Below are positions 40,551 to 49,153 of a stretch of DNA of 64,000 nucleotides, one piece after another. Made by a program: the position numbers and the translations under genes. The notes below the pieces were generated by a model, which was given only the letters and a program-made list of their open reading frames with translations, was not told the origin of the DNA and searched no databases. Source of the stretch: Paeniglutamicibacter sp. Y32M11 (lineage in GTDB: Bacteria > Actinomycetota > Actinomycetes > Actinomycetales > Micrococcaceae); contig NZ_CP079107.1 in NCBI RefSeq assembly GCF_019285735.1, positions 3,162,001 to 3,226,000 of the forward strand, written 5' to 3'. How positions within the stretch are numbered: the first letter of the stretch is position 1; every line of letters starts with the position of its first letter.

Positions 40551-41783
40551 ATGAACATTGCAGCCGAGTCGAGCATCGAGTTTCCCGCCGGTGTCATTGA
40601 ACCGGAGTACGAACTCTGGGGCGAGGTGGATGTTGATCCCGCAGGCCTCTTTGAGGACATCAATGACGCGGATCGCGCCTACTGGGACCGCGCCCGCGCC
40701 TTCGGCCTCCATGAGGTCCGCCCGGTCATCGACGGATACTGGGACAAGGCCGACTACCCACTCGAGCTGGCGAAGCGACTGGGCGAGCTAGATCTGCTGC
40801 GCGACGGCCTCACCCTGGAGGGTTACGCCCCCATGAGCGTGCTGGCCGCCGGACTGGTGAACATGGAACTCTCTCGCGCCGACGGATCGGTGGGAACCAT
40901 CGCCGCCGTACAGGCAGGGTTGGCCCTGCGCTCGATCACCGAGTGCGGCTCCCCCGAACAGATCGCCGAGTGGGGCCCGAAGCTGGCCAACGCCGAGGTG
41001 CTCGGAGCCTTTGCGCTGACCGAACCCACCCATGGCTCCGATTCGGTGTCCCTAGAGACCCGCGCGGTGCGGGTTGCCGGCGGGTACCGGATCAGTGGCG
41101 AAAAGAAGTGGATCGGCAACGGCTCGGTCGGTGGCATCACCATCGTGTGGGCACGCGATGAGGAGAAGAAGGTCCGCGGCTTCATTGTGCAGCAGGAGTG
41201 GGAGGGTTACACCGGCACCACGATCGAGGGCAAGCTCTCACTGCGCGCCATCTGGCAGGCACACATCCGCATGGACAATGTTTTTGTCCCGGATTCTCAC
41301 GTTTTACCCGAAGCCAATAGCTTCAAGGACACCTCCAAGGTCCTCTTTGCCACCCGCCTGGGTGTCGCCTGGTCCGCGGTCGGTCACGCCACCGCCTGCT
41401 ATGAGAGCGCCGTGCAATATGCCGCCCAGCGCATCCAGTTCGGCCGCCCGCTGGCGGCCAGCCAGATTGTGCAGGAACGTCTGACGCGTATGCACTCGGA
41501 GCTCGCCACCATGCAGCTGAGCGTCATGCAGGCCACCCGCCGCGAAGAAGCCGGAACGCTGACCCCGGTCCAGGCATCGCTGGCAAAGTTCACCTGCACC
41601 CGCTTGGCGCGCGGTATCGCCTCGAACGCCCGCGACCTACTCGGCGGCAACGGCATCCTGCTCAAGCACCGCGTGGCGCGGCACATTGCCGATATTGAGG
41701 CCATCCACACCTATGAGGGCACCGAGACGGTACAGGCACTGATCATTGGTCGCTCCATCACCGGGATCTCCGCCTTCGCCTAA
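40551..41783 (+). CDS. Acyl-CoA dehydrogenase (glutaryl-CoA dehydrogenase-like)
   Basis: A 410-residue FAD enzyme. The FAD/substrate region FALTEPTHGSDS (near 165) and the WIGNG motif are typical, and the catalytic base is Glu389 in HTYEGTETVQ. Close relatives are annotated as glutaryl-CoA or short-chain acyl-CoA dehydrogenases. The N-terminal 45 residues are a variable acidic leader (EFPAGVIEPEYELWGE). Electrons would pass to ETF. The last 159 bases of the gene, with its terminator, occur again at 42576-42805, so this locus has been partly duplicated. Confidence 0.9.
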   Translation: MNIAAESSIEFPAGVIEPEYELWGEVDVDPAGLFEDINDADRAYWDRARAFGLHEVRPVIDGYWDKADYPLELAKRLGELDLLRDGLTLEGYAPMSVLAAGLVNMELSRADGSVGTIAAVQAGLALRSITECGSPEQIAEWGPKLANAEVLGAFALTEPTHGSDSVSLETRAVRVAGGYRISGEKKWIGNGSVGGITIVWARDEEKKVRGFIVQQEWEGYTGTTIEGKLSLRAIWQAHIRMDNVFVPDSHVLPEANSFKDTSKVLFATRLGVAWSAVGHATACYESAVQYAAQRIQFGRPLAASQIVQERLTRMHSELATMQLSVMQATRREEAGTLTPVQASLAKFTCTRLARGIASNARDLLGGNGILLKHRVARHIADIEAIHTYEGTETVQALIIGRSITGISAFA

Positions 41784-41854
41784 ACCCAAGTAGCCCTACA
41801 CAGAACCATGGTGCGGTGGCCCGCGAGATGATATCCCGCTGGCCACCGCACCAT
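41625..41854. repeat. 230-base direct repeat, original copy (dehydrogenase tail and terminator)
   Basis: Positions 41625-41854 and 42576-42805 align without gaps and differ at only about a dozen bases. The repeat begins in the codons for NARDLL and runs through the stop to the end of the terminator stem. The first copy belongs to the intact gene. Confidence 0.95.
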
Positions 41855-41859
41855 TTTTG
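41808..41859. terminator. Terminator after the acyl-CoA dehydrogenase
   Basis: A 14-bp perfect stem, ATGGTGCGGTGGCC with GGCCACCGCACCAT, followed by TTTT. It is included in the 230-base repeat. Confidence 0.85.
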
Positions 41860-42059
41860 GTTGTGAGACCAACCGTTGGACTCCACCAAATATCTTCGGC
41901 AGGAAAAATTGTTCAAAAAATTCTTTTTAACGTGCCAAAAAATATTTTGCTACAAATGTTCCATCGTTTCTTATTTTTCTTACTCAATCAAAATCACTGT
42001 TACGGCAACGTTACGATTTCGAATTGAAAATCTACCCATTAAATGAATACGGTTAAGAG

Positions 42060-42224
42060 GCGGATAAGGTTGCCCCCAAGCCCCGAATCCGCATCGGGAG
42101 TGCGGATATCCCCAAGCTAGCCGCCCCCCACCGAAGGAGCATGGCTCCTTCACACCAAAGAGTCCAACCCGCGGGAGGATTCTTAGAACGGGGTCTTCCT
42201 GCACTGCGTGCGGGAAGATCCCCG
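42060..42224. ncRNA. Candidate structured RNA element, copy A
   Basis: Five hairpins in the same order as copy B at 45559-45718: 42060-42092 (GCGGAT/ATCCGC), 42102-42124 (GCGGATA/TAGCCGC around CCCCAA), 42133-42151 (8 bp), 42163-42179 (weaker) and 42189-42224 (long stem). Many bases differ from copy B, but the pairing is kept, with paired changes in the second and third hairpins and in the last stem. The left flank is AT-rich. Which strand is transcribed cannot be told. Alternatives are a terminator array or a decayed mobile repeat. Confidence 0.5.
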
Positions 42225-42375
42225 CCTCCGCTTCATGAACTATCCCGATCCACGAGCCACAGCCTTCCGCGCAACACACCGTTCGCTGTTTACATTTGTC
42301 CGCAGTGCCATAAGGATTCCTTGCAGTAGTCGTTGGTTCTTGACGGCCGCCAAAGGACGACGTTCCCACCCGCTT

Positions 42376-42577
42376 ACCCATCTGCCTCTTAGCGTTTTGC
42401 GTCCGAGGGCAGTCCCCGGGTCCTCGGGCCACGCGCGCTTGGGGTACCGGCCCCGTTTTTCGGCGCGCACCTGCGCATAGGGACCCGACCGAAAGAGGCC
42501 AGATCCTCTGTGACAGCTCGCGGGCGTCCGGCCGGGGAAAGTAGACGGATGAGGACCTAGATCCTACCCTTGACCAA
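42376..42577 (-). pseudogene. Decayed C-terminal fragment of an hrpB-type helicase gene
   Basis: Read on the minus strand this matches the last 65 or so residues of HrpB encoded at 45726-48383. ALVKGR, LLSPAGRP and VRAEKRGRYPK.-WPEDP are conserved. A TAG stop replaces a serine codon shortly after ALVKGRI, and one T is missing in the run of T before the FWSGPYAQ equivalent, shifting the frame. The upstream end fuses to the copied dehydrogenase tail at about 42576. This is clearly a remnant and not a functional gene. Confidence 0.85.
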
Positions 42578-42805
42578 CGCCCGCGATCTGCTCGCGGGCA
42601 ACGGCATCCTCCTCAAGCACGGCGTGGCTCGGCACATTGCCGACATTGAGGCCATCCACACCTATGAGGGCACCGAGACGGTACAGGCACTGATCATTGG
42701 TCGCTCCATGACCGGGATCTCCGCTTTCGCCTAAACCCCAGTAGCCCTACACAGAACCATGGTGCGGTGGCCCGCGAGATGATATCCCGCTGGCCACCGC
42801 ACCAT
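42576..42805 (+). pseudogene. Duplicated 3' tail of the acyl-CoA dehydrogenase gene, with terminator
   Basis: This is the second copy of the 230-base repeat. It would encode the last 52 residues of the dehydrogenase with few changes (for example LLAGN for LLGGN, HGVAR for HRVAR and SMTG for SITG) and includes the stop and the terminator stem (42759-42805). It has no start and no upstream domain. It now serves as the right border of the inserted segment, next to the dioxygenase end. Confidence 0.9.
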
Positions 42806-42824
42806 CAGTTTTAGCTGGTGGGGG

Positions 42825-43790
42825 CTAGCTGCTGGAGCCCGGAGCGCCCGGTGCGCCGATGGGCGGTGTTCCGCCGCCCATCCCGCCACCACCGCCCATG
42901 CCGCCGGCGGCGGGGGTTGTCGCGGTATCCACACCAACGTCCAGGACCACCGTGTAGCCGGAGCCCGTATCCCCGGTAACGGTGGCCAGCTGGCTGGCAC
43001 CGCCGTCGTCGCCAAAAATGCCGTCGCTCTCCAGGGATACCTGGGCCAAAGTCCGCACCGAGGCTTCGTAGCCGGCGGTCGCGTAAACGGCCTCCGAAAC
43101 ATCCTTCGGCAACGCCACCTGGGAGGTGGCAATGGCCTTGGTGGCGTCGGTGATCGACGCGGCGTCCGGGTAAACCTCAAAGTGGATATGCGGCCAGCGA
43201 CCCGTGTAACAAGCCGGGAAGATGCTGGTGAAGCGGACCGTGCCGTTGGCGTCGGCCACCTGCACACCGCGGAGGTAGTTTTCCTCCTCAACAGCGGCGG
43301 TATACATCGAGTAGTTTCCCTCTCGGTCGCAGTGCCAGACGTAGACGGCCACCCCGGCAAAGGCCGTCGAGGAATTCGCCATGTCCTTGATGTTCAGTTC
43401 GATGGTCATCGGGATTCCCGCGGCGGTCCCGCTGGCGTCCCCGAAGCTGGTCCGAATGTCGCTGCGCACGATGCCGCTTTGTTCCAGGATGTCGGGCCCG
43501 TTGGAGCCGTCGCCGGGGTAAGGGCCGGCGGTTTCATCGGGGATTTCCCCGGAGGCCGTGCCGGTGGCCGAGCTGGAGGCGCTCGAGTTACCGGTGGTGG
43601 TACATGCCGCCAGAGTGAAGACCAGTGCGCCGGCGCCCAAGGCCTTCAGCGCCGTGCGGCGCCCGAGCAGCATCTGGACGTCAAAGCCCAGCCCCTGGTC
43701 CTCGAGGTCTTCATCGGGCCGCGGCAGGGTCCGGCCCCGGTAGCTCGGGTGCCCCGAGGTGGACGAGGCGTTCGAATGCTGGATGGCCAT
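42825..43790 (-). CDS. Exported intradiol-dioxygenase-like protein
   Basis: A 321-residue protein of the intradiol ring-cleavage dioxygenase fold. The N-terminus has a twin-arginine-like signal (LLGRRTALKALGAGALVF) followed by a lipobox-like LAAC. The iron-site residues appear in order: Tyr in VYVWH or ENYLRG, Tyr in ACYTGRWPHIHFEV, and the two histidines of that motif. A Gly/Pro-rich tail (GGMGGGGGMGGG) closes the chain. Classical members open catechol rings, but exported members of this group have no proven substrate. ATG 43790 has AGGA upstream; the frame beyond it is antisense to the neighbouring SDR gene and rejected. Confidence 0.85.
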   Translation of the reverse strand: MAIQHSNASSTSGHPSYRGRTLPRPDEDLEDQGLGFDVQMLLGRRTALKALGAGALVFTLAACTTTGNSSASSSATGTASGEIPDETAGPYPGDGSNGPDILEQSGIVRSDIRTSFGDASGTAAGIPMTIELNIKDMANSSTAFAGVAVYVWHCDREGNYSMYTAAVEEENYLRGVQVADANGTVRFTSIFPACYTGRWPHIHFEVYPDAASITDATKAIATSQVALPKDVSEAVYATAGYEASVRTLAQVSLESDGIFGDDGGASQLATVTGDTGSGYTVVLDVGVDTATTPAAGGMGGGGGMGGGTPPIGAPGAPGSSS

Positions 43791-44063
43791 GTGATGGGGT
43801 CCTAAGCTCTTGGTTGCGGCCCCCGCGGGGGCACCTGGTGAATTGATAACTACAGTAGATGGCAGGGGTATGCCAGAGCTGTGACCGGACCCAGTGCCGC
43901 CTATGCGGATCGGGGGTGGAAGTGCGCTCGAGAATCCGGCGCATCGCGAAGCACGATCCGAGCCAAGGACCGCTCCGCGATCCTTACGGCCACGCGCCGC
44001 CGGCCGGACGAGTAGGCTTCGAAGCGGGGTTGTTACCCCGCTCCCCCGGTGAAAGGCACACAC

Positions 44064-44894
44064 ATGCGACGACAAACGATCATTATCACCGGGGCGAGTG
44101 ATGGAATCGGGGCGGAGGCTGCACGTGCGCTCGGCCGCCAAGGCCATGAAGTGGTCGTCGTGGGCAGGAACCAAGAAAGGACCGCTTCCGTCGCCCGGGA
44201 AATCAACGCCGATTACTTCCTCGTTGACTTCTCCGATCTTGGCGAGGTCCGCAATTTGGCGGCACTGCTGCTGGAAAAGTATCCACGCATCGACGTCCTG
44301 GCCAACAATGCCGGCGGCATCTTCACCCCCGCGCGCCAGGAGACGACCGACGGTTTCGAGATGACATTCCAGGTCAACTACCTTGCCCCGTTTCTCCTCA
44401 CCCATCTTTTGCTGGACCGACTCGTCGCCTCCCGCGCGACGGTCATCAATACCTCGAGCGTGGCCAACCGGCTTTACGGCAACGTGGATCTTTCCGACCT
44501 GAACGCCGAGCGTTATTACGATCCCAAGCGTGCCTACGGAAATGCCAAGCTCGAACAGATCATGTTCACGCGAGAACTGCATCGCCGCTTCGGGCCGCAG
44601 GGACTGACCTCAGCGTCTTTCCACCCGGGGATCGTCAGCACCGGCTTTTCCCGCGCCCCCGGCGCATCGATGGAAGGCATCTACGGCAATTGGTTCATCT
44701 CCAAGTTCCTCGCAAGCCCGCGGAAGGGCGCCGATACGCTGATTTGGCTCGCGTCGGAGGACCGCGGGAAAACCTGGCCCTCCGGTGAATTCTTCACCCG
44801 CCGCAAGGTCGCCCCAACAAACCCGCAGGCCAATGATGCATCGCTCTGCGCAGAACTCTGGAACCAAAGCCAGGAACTCCTGCAGATCGGTTGA
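44064..44894 (+). CDS. SDR family oxidoreductase (retinol dehydrogenase-like)
   Basis: A 276-residue short-chain dehydrogenase. The nucleotide loop TGASDGIG is at residues 9-16, NNAGG follows strand 4, the catalytic serine is in INTSSVANR, and the Tyr-x-x-x-Lys pair is in AYGNAKLEQ, followed by FHPGIVST. The long insert before the active site (YGNVDLSDLNAERYYDPKR) is typical of the WWOX/retinol-dehydrogenase-like class. ATG 44064 follows GAAAGG. It is divergent from the dioxygenase gene across 273 bases. Confidence 0.9.
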   Translation: MRRQTIIITGASDGIGAEAARALGRQGHEVVVVGRNQERTASVAREINADYFLVDFSDLGEVRNLAALLLEKYPRIDVLANNAGGIFTPARQETTDGFEMTFQVNYLAPFLLTHLLLDRLVASRATVINTSSVANRLYGNVDLSDLNAERYYDPKRAYGNAKLEQIMFTRELHRRFGPQGLTSASFHPGIVSTGFSRAPGASMEGIYGNWFISKFLASPRKGADTLIWLASEDRGKTWPSGEFFTRRKVAPTNPQANDASLCAELWNQSQELLQIG

Positions 44895-45725
44895 TCCCCT
44901 GCTACCCGCCGCCGGGTTCCAGACATTGTCCTGAATCTATTTCTGGCACTTACCGGGATTCACCACCTGAGTATTGCCCGCAGGGAGGTCTAGTTCTTGG
45001 ATCCCGACCGGGTACAGGTCGACAGCGATACTAAGGCTGTATGGCTGACTCGCCTGTTCTTTCGGCCACTACCGGTGGCATAAGCGGCGCGGTCAAAGGG
45101 CACGACCGTAGAAACATTACGAGATCCCGACCACGCATGAACCAGCCGAGCGAAGCGGCGAATCAGTGGATGCCGCTGGCCCATCACCTGGCCGACGTTC
45201 GTCCAGACCGTGCCACGACCATTGGCACGCTTACCGTTCGCTTGCCCAAGGTATACGGTGGTTCAAAACAACTTTCAGGGTGGCCTCCGTGGCACTGGTC
45301 ATGACGATGATTTTCTCAACGTGACACAACACGAACTCCCTGGACTTGCTTCTCTTCGTAACGCCAACAAGTTCACCGCGTATGTTCGGCACGATATTTT
45401 CTTAGAAAAAACGATATTTCGCTATCCCGATATTTTTTCTGGTACAAATACCCATCAGCTTAAGCTTTCTTGTGAACGGAAAATACCGTTACGGGAACGT
45501 TATGATGCTGGATTCAAAATACACCCATCGGATCAAATAGGATTAAAAAGCGGACAAGGGCGCCCCCCAGGCACCGAACCTGCGCCGAGAAGGCGACCAG
45601 CCCCAAACTGGACGCCTCCCACAGAAGGAGTGTGACTCCTTCGCACCGAAGAGTCCACCCCTGCGGGTGGATTTCTGGTACGGGGTTTTCCCACACGATG
45701 TGTGGGGAGGCCCCGTACGAACTTG
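44895..45725. other. 831-base gap: unassigned sequence, AT-rich stretch and RNA-like element
   Basis: 44895-45400 contains several short frames, none with recognisable motifs or a good ribosome-binding site; part of it may be a decayed gene I cannot name. 45400-45500 is AT-rich, and 45559-45718 is the hairpin-rich copy B that abuts the hrpB stop. Confidence 0.6.
45559..45718. ncRNA. Candidate structured RNA element, copy B
   Basis: Five hairpins follow each other: 45559-45586 (GGCG..CAGG/CCTGCGCC), 45592-45616 (GGCGaCCAG/CTGGaCGCC), 45624-45642 (GAAGGAGT/ACTCCTTC), 45654-45671 (TCCACCC/GGGTGGA) and 45678-45718 (GTACGGGG and CCCACAC stems). The last lies 8 bases from the hrpB stop. On the minus strand it could be the hrpB 3' UTR, ending in TTGTCCGCTTTTT. 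On the plus strand an AT-rich region precedes it. Copy A shares the order and pairing. There is no match to a riboswitch, tmRNA, RNase P or SRP RNA that I recognise. Confidence 0.55.
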
Positions 45726-48383
45726 CTAGCCCATCCGCTTCTTGACATGTCGAGTTGCTGGAGCAGTCCAAGGGTCTTCGGGCCAAGGATGCTTGGGATA
45801 TCGTCCTCGGTTTTCGGCACGCACCTGCGCGTAGGGACCGGACCAAAAAGAGGCCAGATCGTCGGTGACGGCCAGCGGCCGCCCGGCCGGCGACAGCAGA
45901 TGGAAGAGGACCGAAACTCGGCCTTTGACCAGTGCAGGTGAAACTGCCAGCCCAAAGCATTCCTGCAATTTCACGGCCACCACGGGAGGTGCCTCGGGCT
46001 GGTCAAGAGGAGGGTAGCTGATGCGGATCCTCGAACCACTGGGTACCGTGAGGTGCTCAGGCACCAACTCATCCATGCCCGTGGCTTCGGGCCAGGGCAG
46101 TAACCGGCGCAGGGCGTCGGTCAGATTCAAGGATCCGGGAGACTTTCCGCCGGCGAGCGCCTCAAGTTCCGGGGCCAGCCAGTTCTCCGCACCCGCCAGC
46201 AACGATTCGTCATCCATTGCCGGCCACGGATCACCAAGGATGCGGTGCACCATGGCCAGGCGGCTACGCAGTAGGGATGCGCTCTCGGAGAAGCTCAGCA
46301 TCCCCAGACCGTTTTCACGCAGGGCATCAAGCACCGCGGCCCTGCCCTGCGCACGGGTTGGAGCCACCGGTGTGCTGGCTAGTTCGATGGCACCTAGGCG
46401 GTGTTCCTTGCGGGCGTTGAGCTTGCCCCGGGCAAAGGTGGTGGTGACTTCGGTTTTTTCAAGGTGCGCGGCGGCCAATAGGGCAACTGACTCATCCAGT
46501 GGTGCTGCGGCACGGATTAGCGCCCCGGTACCCGCCGCGTCACGGCCGGCTGCACGGGCCACCTCGGCCACGGCAATCCAAGGGTGGTGAGCCAACGGGC
46601 TTCCTGCAGGTAGCCCGGCACGAGTTCCGGAAGCCAAGAGGTACGTGGCGCCAGCTGCGTGTTGCACCCGGCGTGCCACCTGACCGGGGTAGGCAAGCGC
46701 TACCACGGTGCCCAATTCCAATCCCGCGACAAGACTGCGATCGCTCGGCGCTACGGAGCCCGCCGCCGGTGCTGCTCGCTTGATCAGGGATTCCAAGCGT
46801 GCTGCTTCACGCTTCCAGATAGCGGATTGTGGGTGTCCCCCATTGCGCAAGGCTGAGAGCAATGCACCTAGGTCTGCGCCTTGGGCGCGGTAGTCTCCGG
46901 CGAGCAGGGCCACGGCCTGTGCCACGGTGCTATTCCCCAGCAATGGGGCTCCATCTAATAACGCCCGGCCCAAGCGTGGGTCCGCTGGAATACTGGCCAG
47001 CCGCCTACCCAGCGCGGTGGCGTGCCCCGACGCATCAATGGCGCCGAGGTGTTCAAGCACCAGGGTGGCAGATTGCAGACTCAAGGCTGGCGGTGCCTCC
47101 GGCAGGTGTAGACCGGCGCCGCCCGGAGCGCCCCAGCATGCCAGGGTCAGGGCCGCGGAGGTCAAATCGGCGACGGTGATTTCGGCCCGGGCGTGCGCGG
47201 GGGCAGCGGCAAAGCTCTTTTCGGCAAAGGCGCGCACCACGCGTCCCGGTCCTTGACGGGCAGCACGTCCCGCGCGCTGGATGCTGGAGGCTCGCGAGGC
47301 CGAGACGGTGACCAGCCCGCTCATTGAGCGTGCCGCGTCCCGTCGTGGTTCGCGGGCTAGGCCCGAATCGATGACCAAGCGCACTCCGGGGACGGTCAGT
47401 GAGGATTCTGCCAAGGAGGTGGAAACTATAATGCGTGGGAGTCCACCGGGTTCCCGCCCGGAGACCGCTCTATCCTGCATGGCGGCGGTGATCTGCCCGT
47501 GGAGCTCCAAAACCTCGGTCCCCGGTGCATAGGTGCGGATTTGCGCGGCAACTTCCGCTACTTCCCAGGCCCCGGGCACAAAGACAAGTGCGTCGATGCC
47601 TGGATCGGATTCCAGGGCGTGAGCGTGGGCCGAGGCTGCCGTGGCAGCTACGTGGGTCAGGAAGGTCCGGGAGACCCCACGGTCAGTCAATCTGGGGGCA
47701 GCGGCGGGCTCCCACTGAATGGAAAGTTCGTGCAATGCCGAGGGGCAATCAATCACCGGAGCAGGGCCCGTGCCCTCCGCGTTGCCGAGCAACTGAGCAA
47801 AACGTGGCGCATCAAGAGTTGCCGACATGGCGATCAGCATCAGATCCCCGCGCAGCTCATGGACCTCGCGCAGCATGCCAAGTAGCAGGTCGGTTTCCAG
47901 GCCACGTTCGTGGACCTCATCAATGATCACCGCTGCGATACCGTCCAGACCGGGGTCGGCCAAGAGCCGACGCAACAGGATCCCGGGGGTCACAAATTCC
48001 ACGATGGTGCCCGAACCCGTGGTGTTCTCACCACGGACGGTGAATCCCACCTTCAACCCCGGCCCACTAGCATCCAGCACGGCTAGGCGCCTGGCTGCCG
48101 AGCGTGCTGCCACGCGGCGCGGTTGGGTCACGATGATGCGCACCGGGGAACCTGCCCGTGCTGCAGCAACATTGGCCACCAATGGTGGCACCAACGTGGT
48201 CTTACCCGTTCCGGGAGGTGCTTGGATCAGTGCTGTGGCGGCTTCTCCCCCGTCCTGAAGTACCGCTTCCAGTTCGGGCAGCGACCCGGCAAAGACCAGT
48301 CCTGCGGAGATCTTCTCTAGATCAAAGGGCGTTATCGCTGGGGATAAAGACTTGTTGAATGCTTGCTCGCTCACCAGCCCCAT
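45726..48383 (-). CDS. hrpB: ATP-dependent helicase HrpB
   Basis: An 885-residue DEAH/DExH helicase. Walker A APPGTGKT is at 55-62, the box DEVHERGLETD at 155, motif III SATLDA, motif VI QRAGRAARQGPGRVVR, then HA2 and the HrpB-specific C-terminal domain ending in RGRYPKHPWPEDP. HrpB remodels RNA or RNA-protein complexes; its exact role in actinobacteria is unclear. ATG 48383 begins MGLVSEQAF; the frame to 48476 is not supported. A broken copy of its last 65 residues lies at 42.4 kb, and a hairpin-rich element follows its stop. Confidence 0.93.
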   Translation of the reverse strand: MGLVSEQAFNKSLSPAITPFDLEKISAGLVFAGSLPELEAVLQDGGEAATALIQAPPGTGKTTLVPPLVANVAAARAGSPVRIIVTQPRRVAARSAARRLAVLDASGPGLKVGFTVRGENTTGSGTIVEFVTPGILLRRLLADPGLDGIAAVIIDEVHERGLETDLLLGMLREVHELRGDLMLIAMSATLDAPRFAQLLGNAEGTGPAPVIDCPSALHELSIQWEPAAAPRLTDRGVSRTFLTHVAATAASAHAHALESDPGIDALVFVPGAWEVAEVAAQIRTYAPGTEVLELHGQITAAMQDRAVSGREPGGLPRIIVSTSLAESSLTVPGVRLVIDSGLAREPRRDAARSMSGLVTVSASRASSIQRAGRAARQGPGRVVRAFAEKSFAAAPAHARAEITVADLTSAALTLACWGAPGGAGLHLPEAPPALSLQSATLVLEHLGAIDASGHATALGRRLASIPADPRLGRALLDGAPLLGNSTVAQAVALLAGDYRAQGADLGALLSALRNGGHPQSAIWKREAARLESLIKRAAPAAGSVAPSDRSLVAGLELGTVVALAYPGQVARRVQHAAGATYLLASGTRAGLPAGSPLAHHPWIAVAEVARAAGRDAAGTGALIRAAAPLDESVALLAAAHLEKTEVTTTFARGKLNARKEHRLGAIELASTPVAPTRAQGRAAVLDALRENGLGMLSFSESASLLRSRLAMVHRILGDPWPAMDDESLLAGAENWLAPELEALAGGKSPGSLNLTDALRRLLPWPEATGMDELVPEHLTVPSGSRIRISYPPLDQPEAPPVVAVKLQECFGLAVSPALVKGRVSVLFHLLSPAGRPLAVTDDLASFWSGPYAQVRAENRGRYPKHPWPEDPWTAPATRHVKKRMG

Positions 48384-48418
48384 TATCCAGCCTTCGGCAC
48401 CACGCCGGCGCCGCCGAC

Positions 48419-49153
48419 TCAGGCTGTTCGGCGACGCAGCGTCAGTGAACCGATAATGATGGCGCCGAGGATCCATGCAGCAATGAACCCGATGCGCACC
48501 CAGATGTATCCGGTATCGGTATCTCCGTTGGCCACGGCGGTCAAGGCATCAATAGCGTGACTCAGTGGCAACACATCCCCAATGGCTTCAAGCACCGAGG
48601 GCAGTTGCTCGCGCGGTAGGAAAATTCCACCGAGCAAGATCTGCGGGAAGACTAGGGCCGGCATAAATTGGACTACCTGGAATTCACTGCGGGCAAAGGC
48701 GCTGGCCAGCAACCCCAATGCGGTGCCCAGCAACGCGTCAGCGATGGCCACCATGAAGAGTAGGCCCACGTTGCCACTGACCTCGAGCCCCGCAACCCAC
48801 ACAGCGAATCCCACCGCGATCCCCGTCTGCACAATGGCCAACAGCCCGAAGGCCAGCGCATAACCCAGAATGAAGTCGGCCTTGCCCATGGGCAGTGATA
48901 GTAATCGTTCTAGGGTGCCGCTGCGCCGCTCGCGCAGGGTCGCAATGGACGTCACGAGGAACATCACGATAAAGGGGAAGAGTGCAATCATCGCCGGGCC
49001 AATGCGCGCAAAGACCGGGGTATCGGTAAAGATCCAGGCGACCAGCCCCACGAGCAGTGCGGGGACCAGCAATAACAGGACCAGCGTGCGGTGGTCGTGG
49101 CGTATTTGGTTCAGTACCCGTGCTGCCGTAGCAAGGATTCTCGAGAGTTTCAT
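48419..49153 (-). CDS. ABC-2 type transporter permease
   Basis: A 244-residue ABC-2 permease with six membrane helices. ARVLNQIRHDHRTLVLLLLVP at the start, a RRSGTLERLLSLPMGKADFILGYALAF region split in helix 2-3, and a QILLGGIFLPREQLP segment in the fifth helix are typical of the family (YadH/DrrB type). It exports drugs or polymers with its ATPase. ATG 49153 overlaps the ATPase stop as ATGA. hrpB lies 35 bases downstream on the same strand and might be read with it. Confidence 0.92.
   Translation of the reverse strand: MKLSRILATAARVLNQIRHDHRTLVLLLLVPALLVGLVAWIFTDTPVFARIGPAMIALFPFIVMFLVTSIATLRERRSGTLERLLSLPMGKADFILGYALAFGLLAIVQTGIAVGFAVWVAGLEVSGNVGLLFMVAIADALLGTALGLLASAFARSEFQVVQFMPALVFPQILLGGIFLPREQLPSVLEAIGDVLPLSHAIDALTAVANGDTDTGYIWVRIGFIAAWILGAIIIGSLTLRRRTA

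Follow-up and report, generated by a model that had tools for sequence, protein, structure and literature searches.

We examined a stretch of 64,000 nucleotides (the window) from the single 4.17-Mb contig of Paeniglutamicibacter sp. Y32M11 and found that it contains two copies of a real, structure-conserved element, each located near a 3' end of hrpB, a gene for an ATP-dependent helicase. Copy 1 lies at 42054..42224 and copy 2 at 45544..45719, both on the + strand and both delimited by alignment and folding. Selection on RNA structure, proposed in a preliminary description of the region, is supported by base pairs changed on both sides in excess of shuffled controls and by a test that counts broken pairs. 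We consider, with a probability of about one half, that the element is a free-standing small RNA (sRNA) gene of about 170 nt on the + strand, convergent with hrpB. Such a gene would most likely be lineage-restricted, present in two versions and outside the Rfam library, and of a kind that is itself ordinary. Since its two copies in the same genome retain their structure by compensatory changes, it is a precise candidate, perhaps for a regulatory RNA that passed between species along with a fragment of a neighbouring gene.

Conserved fold and compensatory changes

The two hairpin-rich segments of the preliminary description are both present and align over their full length, as do the AT-rich stretches of about 160 bp that accompany them; the first alignment of the two copies covered 98 nt at 76% identity. 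A third copy was found in a close relative of the same genus (G009), at the same place flanking hrpB. Both copies in the window carry four conserved hairpins in the same order, located approximately at 42096-42128, 42133-42151, 42158-42184, and 42189-42224 in copy 1 and at 45587-45619, 45624-45642, 45650-45676, and 45678-45718 in copy 2. Five hairpins had been described; four of them are conserved, but the first has no common fold. The letters are as described in the second, where GGCGaCCAG/CTGGaCGCC stands against GCGGaTA/TAgCCGC with the CCCCAA loop kept, and in the third, where the closing pair is T-A in one copy and C-G in the other.

Over the three sequences, the common fold consists of four helices with 50 pairs and with loops of 7, 3, 4, and 3 columns, in hairpin order. 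Standard pairs fill 139 of the 147 paired cells, a value as high as this being found in one of 500 shuffles (slid-partner controls, 37 to 54%). In seven of the 50 pairs both bases have changed, and every one of the four helices has at least one such pair; none of the 500 shuffles reached seven, and the slid-partner controls, over which the fold has a bias in its favour because it was derived from the tested sequences, gave 0 to 2. The 43 columns at the 5' end have no common fold: the centroid structure of copy 2 is open there, copy 1 pairs its 5' end, and RNAalifold pairs some of these columns in one alignment, where the single folds disagree.

Part of the bias is avoided in the broken-pair test, in which the fold was taken from one sequence and the broken pairs were counted in another, against 5000 random placements of the same changes. 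Six comparisons, which are not independent, were made per strand; the terminal gap of copy 1 was moved by hand, and the pair counts use the alignment as made. On the + strand, all six comparisons gave fewer broken pairs than random placement (observed/expected 11/16.1, 5/7.9, 10/15.7, 8/17.2, 3/7.1, and 10/16.7; p values of 0.063, 0.019, 0.009, 0.007, 0.003, and 0 of 5000). The corresponding counts on the - strand were 12/14.6, 5/5.7, 13/13.2, 10/13.8, 5/6.1, and 12/17.0, and p fell below 0.05 in five of the six comparisons on the + strand and in one of the six on the - strand. When the changes were placed in stems only, the p values were 0.012, 0.009, 0.232, 0.003, 0.018, and 0.004 on the + strand (five below 0.05) and 0.068, 0.186, 0.314, 0.020, 0.082, and 0.025 on the - strand (two below 0.05).

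Strand and the relation to hrpB

The z-scores of the predicted folds were -6.35 (copy 2) and -4.97 (copy 1) on the + strand and -5.00 and -2.02, respectively, on the - strand. On the + strand, the stem cells other than Watson-Crick pairs comprise 12 G-U (10 columns), 3 A-C (3 columns), and 5 others; comparison of the G-U with the A-C columns by a one-sided sign test gave p = 0.046 (our own arithmetic), which is only supportive because the choice of fold was made on the + strand.

Three options had been offered in the preliminary description: an element in the 3' untranslated region (UTR) of hrpB, a free small RNA, and a structured terminator array. Of these, a free small RNA read from the + strand is the best fit, and the other two fit less well. 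We regard as unlikely a structured 3' UTR or terminator of hrpB on the - strand, or a terminator that works in both directions between hrpB and the dehydrogenase gene converging with it. In favour of such readings, the long last hairpin of copy 2 begins 7 nt after the stop codon of the intact hrpB, and several hairpins also fold on the - strand, at lower energy. Terminator-like matches on that strand were obtained at copy 2 (three overlapping matches at 45569-45544, against an expected 0.7) and at the corresponding position in G009 (one, against 0.5), but the same scan gave no match around copy 1 (41800-42300), and the - strand structure is kept above chance in only the few comparisons given above. 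Moreover, hrpB is present in 15 of 15 genus genomes and a credible copy of the element in only 2 of them, and a terminator does not need the conserved AT-rich stretch on the far side. In the test for an intrinsic terminator (a hairpin followed by a T run), the scans reported the long hairpin on neither strand, and all their hits were the - strand matches at copy 2 and in G009 given above.

Upstream stretch and putative promoter

The AT-rich parts occupy 41895..42053 (69% A+T) on the 5' side of copy 1 and 45385..45543 (62% A+T) on the 5' side of copy 2, in + strand orientation. Identity between the copies rises from 49/90 in the distal AT-rich part through 45/66 just before the RNA to 129/178 (72.5%) in the RNA part, as would be expected for a promoter followed by an RNA. 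The hrpB pieces, by comparison, share 36 of 71 third codon positions. By eye, a hexamer of the form TAnnnT can be seen in both copies, its end lying 6 nt upstream of a conserved GCGGA(C/T)AAGG. The candidate -35-like and -10-like hexamers are TTGAAA (42024-42029) and TACGGT (42048-42053) before GCGGATAAGG in copy 1, and TTCAAA (45513-45518) and TAGGAT (45538-45543) before GCGGACAAGG in copy 2; G009 has TAGGAT at the place aligned to the -10-like hexamer.

Distribution of the element

So far the element is known from two genomes only, with two credible copies in Y32M11 and one in G009. When copy 2 was used as a DNA query against 15 genus genomes, matches were obtained in its own genome and in G009 only; this search misses copy 1 in its own genome and is thus blind to relatives at such a distance. 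Copy 1 as a query matched G009 at 1.2e-25, and all its other matches were 21 to 26 bases long. A hairpin-pattern search matched one named genome, a contig of Paeniglutamicibacter terrestris with the same element, which is probably included in the two-genome total.

We also performed the covariance search that had been suggested. The model (R1) was built from all three sequences and matches those three by construction. No further credible copy was found in the 15 genus genomes with laxer filters, or in 395 family and 396 order genomes, which are overlapping samples of these groups, with stricter filters by which distant relatives can be missed; G009 was not among the matches of the order search. 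In another genome, G010, the alignments of the dehydrogenase and hrpB are separated by about 106 bp, versus about 841 bp in Y32M11.

Weak matches of R1 outside the three copies occurred in family genomes (G381, G282, and G179), in 13 genus genomes along with some minor matches, and in one order genome (G731). Eight loci and the G731 match were checked letter by letter. Five of the loci (L046, L052, L053, L054, and L056) were rejected as single long hairpins that resemble the last helix only, L048 as two hairpins, and L047 (G282) as the end of an open frame with a hairpin; L055 (G012, 23.1 bits) is not a simple hairpin. The G731 match was likewise rejected as the end of a reading frame, presumably that of ribosomal protein S20, with a hairpin. 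The hairpins at L046, L052, L053, and L054, which come from three genus genomes and a further genome of the family, have 16 to 19 pairs and a 3-base loop and are perhaps terminators.

The small number of copies also bears on the idea that the element acts as DNA, as a cluster of palindromic protein-binding sites or as the relic of a small mobile element, which we consider improbable. Such an idea would account for the strong inverted repeats and for the presence of a pair of copies in the genome, of which one lies in a rearranged place between 230-bp repeats. However, changes of the G-U type and invariant open loops are expected of an RNA, and a piece of hrpB is found at both places, so that the element seems not to have moved alone. 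No match was found for copy 2 in phage or plasmid collections, for copy 1 or the spacer 44895-45385 in plasmids, or for the pattern of hairpin 3 in viral contigs. The element does not match repetitive extragenic palindromic (REP) sequences either. As described in PMC12306157, these are short palindromes (14-40 nt in Escherichia coli) with many highly similar copies per genome; Y32M11 has two full copies of about 170 nt that are 72.5% identical.

Genomic context and history of copy 1

Copy 2 is located between a short-chain dehydrogenase gene (+ strand) and the intact hrpB (45726..48476, - strand, with an HrpB_C domain). An hrpB 3' end had been noticed beside each copy; that of copy 1 is a decayed remnant (42409..42576, - strand), 184 bp beyond the copy, with one-base gaps that shift the frame and an in-frame TAG in comparison with the intact gene. 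An acyl-CoA dehydrogenase gene ends on the other side of copy 1, and a second copy of this 3' gene end follows beyond the remnant. These ends belong to a repeat of about 230 bp with 95% identity (41625-41854 and 42576-42805), which flanks copy 1 and the hrpB remnant and is made up of the terminal 159 bp of the gene and 71 bp downstream with a long hairpin; the repeated end is present as a single copy in the stretches fetched from G009 and G010. When compared with the 15 genus genomes, the roughly 180 bp that separate copy 1 from the remnant (42227-42408) yielded no notable alignment, except for a trace of the hrpB end adjoining the last hairpin, seen by eye. A region of about 160 bp on the 5' side of copy 2 (45096-45256) is missing in G009 and occurs at one place only in Y32M11.

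The simplest account, which we consider probable, is that copy 1 and a portion of hrpB came together from a different species outside the sample, because the remnant differs from the hrpB of the same genome mainly at third codon positions (9, 10, and 35 differences at 71 first, second, and third positions, respectively). This excess suggests that most of the divergence arose while the gene still worked. The remnant has 54 differences from the hrpB of its own genome and 53 to 72 from those of 14 other genomes, and its best DNA match outside itself among the 395 family genomes was a genus member (83% over 151 of 174 positions). In a tree of the short piece, the remnant was on a long branch beside Y32M11, G009, and G006 (supports 63, 73, and 91); this placement is not firm, and the donor species is thus inferred only. 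G009 has no copy 1 and has a single dehydrogenase end in the stretch fetched. An old duplicate or a near-relative donor is possible. A recent local tandem duplication is probably not the explanation, given the third-position divergence of the remnant against the 95% identity of the flanking repeat.

A real but less likely possibility is that copy 1 has become a dead relic and that activity is confined to copy 2, which would be compatible with an sRNA gene at copy 2. The hrpB neighbour of copy 1 has decayed, and 3 of the 12 pairs in its first conserved hairpin are mismatched. Its other three hairpins, however, have 1 mismatched and 3 gapped cells of 38, and copy 1 has preserved both its -10-like hexamer and the C segments that are invariant.

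Coding potential and known RNA families

No open reading frame (ORF) of at least 10 amino acids is common to all three sequences, and a toxin peptide or leader ORF was rejected on this ground; several short ORFs are common to copy 2 and G009 alone. The element therefore shows conserved RNA structure without a reading frame, as is looked for in a trans-acting sRNA. The absence of a known RNA family from the preliminary description holds for Rfam 15, which gave no match in the window at the gathering score. In the region 41800-45800, four sub-threshold matches at E<=5 were taken as chance; the one of them on copy 2 is to RNAI (22.3 bits against a cut-off of 47).

The proposed RNA

If the element is an sRNA gene, the AT-rich upstream stretch would carry the promoter, and transcription would start near 42060 (copy 1) or 45550 (copy 2). 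The transcript of about 170 nt would fold into the four conserved hairpins, with its 3' end at the long final one, shortly before the stop codon of the convergent hrpB. Among the letters that are invariant and lie outside the conserved stems are CCCCCA in the 5' part and CCCCAA in the apical loop of the first of the conserved hairpins, with mean predicted unpaired probabilities of 0.66 to 0.84 (5' C tract) and 0.92 to 1.0 (CCCCAA). By analogy with known sRNAs, the RNA may act in trans, with these two segments pairing with G-rich sequences at ribosome-binding sites, and the remaining hairpins may stabilise and terminate the RNA. Copy 1 would be a second version, probably brought in with the hrpB piece.

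Several observations weigh against an sRNA gene on the + strand. The broken-pair tests, the z-scores, and the G-U variants favour the + strand, but the alignment fold energy does not, being lower on the - strand (-78.7 versus -72.3), as are the energies of the single folds (-92 versus -88, and -78.5 versus -77.6). A consensus promoter scan found no sigma-70 site in any of the three sequences, and the last hairpin is without a T run. Between Y32M11 and G009, identity in the RNA part (159/183, 86.9%) does not exceed that of the adjacent spacer (88 and 85%). The remaining C tracts of the RNA are for the most part paired, and a C-rich strand (33% C) might by itself account for the C segments. Finally, the pairing evidence for the structure, from only three sequences of which two are closely related, is good but not final.

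A more speculative extension, to which we give rather little weight, is that the sRNA gene represents a young, genus-restricted family of sRNAs with C-rich loops downstream of hrpB, in which a second, diverged version came in from a different species and has been retained close to the resident one. The two versions would share the scaffold and the pairing segments and differ in their 5' parts, possibly with different target sets.

Comparison with known RNAs

Literature searches yielded little on small RNAs of this group: no report for the genus Paeniglutamicibacter and 12 papers for Arthrobacter, one of which reports four sRNAs in Arthrobacter oxidans (PMC6696678). A review describes C-rich stretches in mycobacterial sRNAs and no known Hfq there (PMC4109619). 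ANTAR-target RNAs are stem-loop RNAs of actinobacteria, reported also in Arthrobacter, and are defined by two stem-loops with six-base loops that have A at position 1 and G at position 4 (PMC8164766). Six-base loops with A1 and G4 were not found in the common fold of the present element.

The 6C/B11 sRNA of actinobacteria (RF01066) is likewise compact and structured, with C-rich loops. No match to RF01066 was found in the window or among the four matches at E<=5, and none in the genome of Y32M11 at E<=0.001, in a search of low sensitivity (150 of 653 first-look candidates were scored, and of 14 known genomes that served as a control, one gave a signal, which was below the cut-off). A C-rich loop of B11 acts on G tracts near ribosome-binding sites (PMC12395582). 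The loop used by B11 is that of its terminator, whereas the C-rich segments of the present RNA are the 5' stretch, which lies outside the conserved hairpins, and the CCCCAA loop. The apical loops of B11 hold six and nine C; here one apical loop holds CCCCAA, in all three sequences. The terminal hairpin also differs from that of B11, as it has a 3-base loop, no C tract, and no T run.

Xanthomonas, the genus of the sRNA sX13, belongs to another phylum. Like the present element, sX13 is strongly structured; its 5' region is open and its stems bear C-rich loops (PMC3771888). It has three stem-loops versus four here, of which one has a C-rich loop, and the likeness is one of description. The C-rich loops of sX13 act on G-rich mRNA sites near translation starts (PMC3771888), and since those of both B11 and sX13 act on G-rich sites, we propose that the C-rich segments of the present RNA may have the same mode of action.

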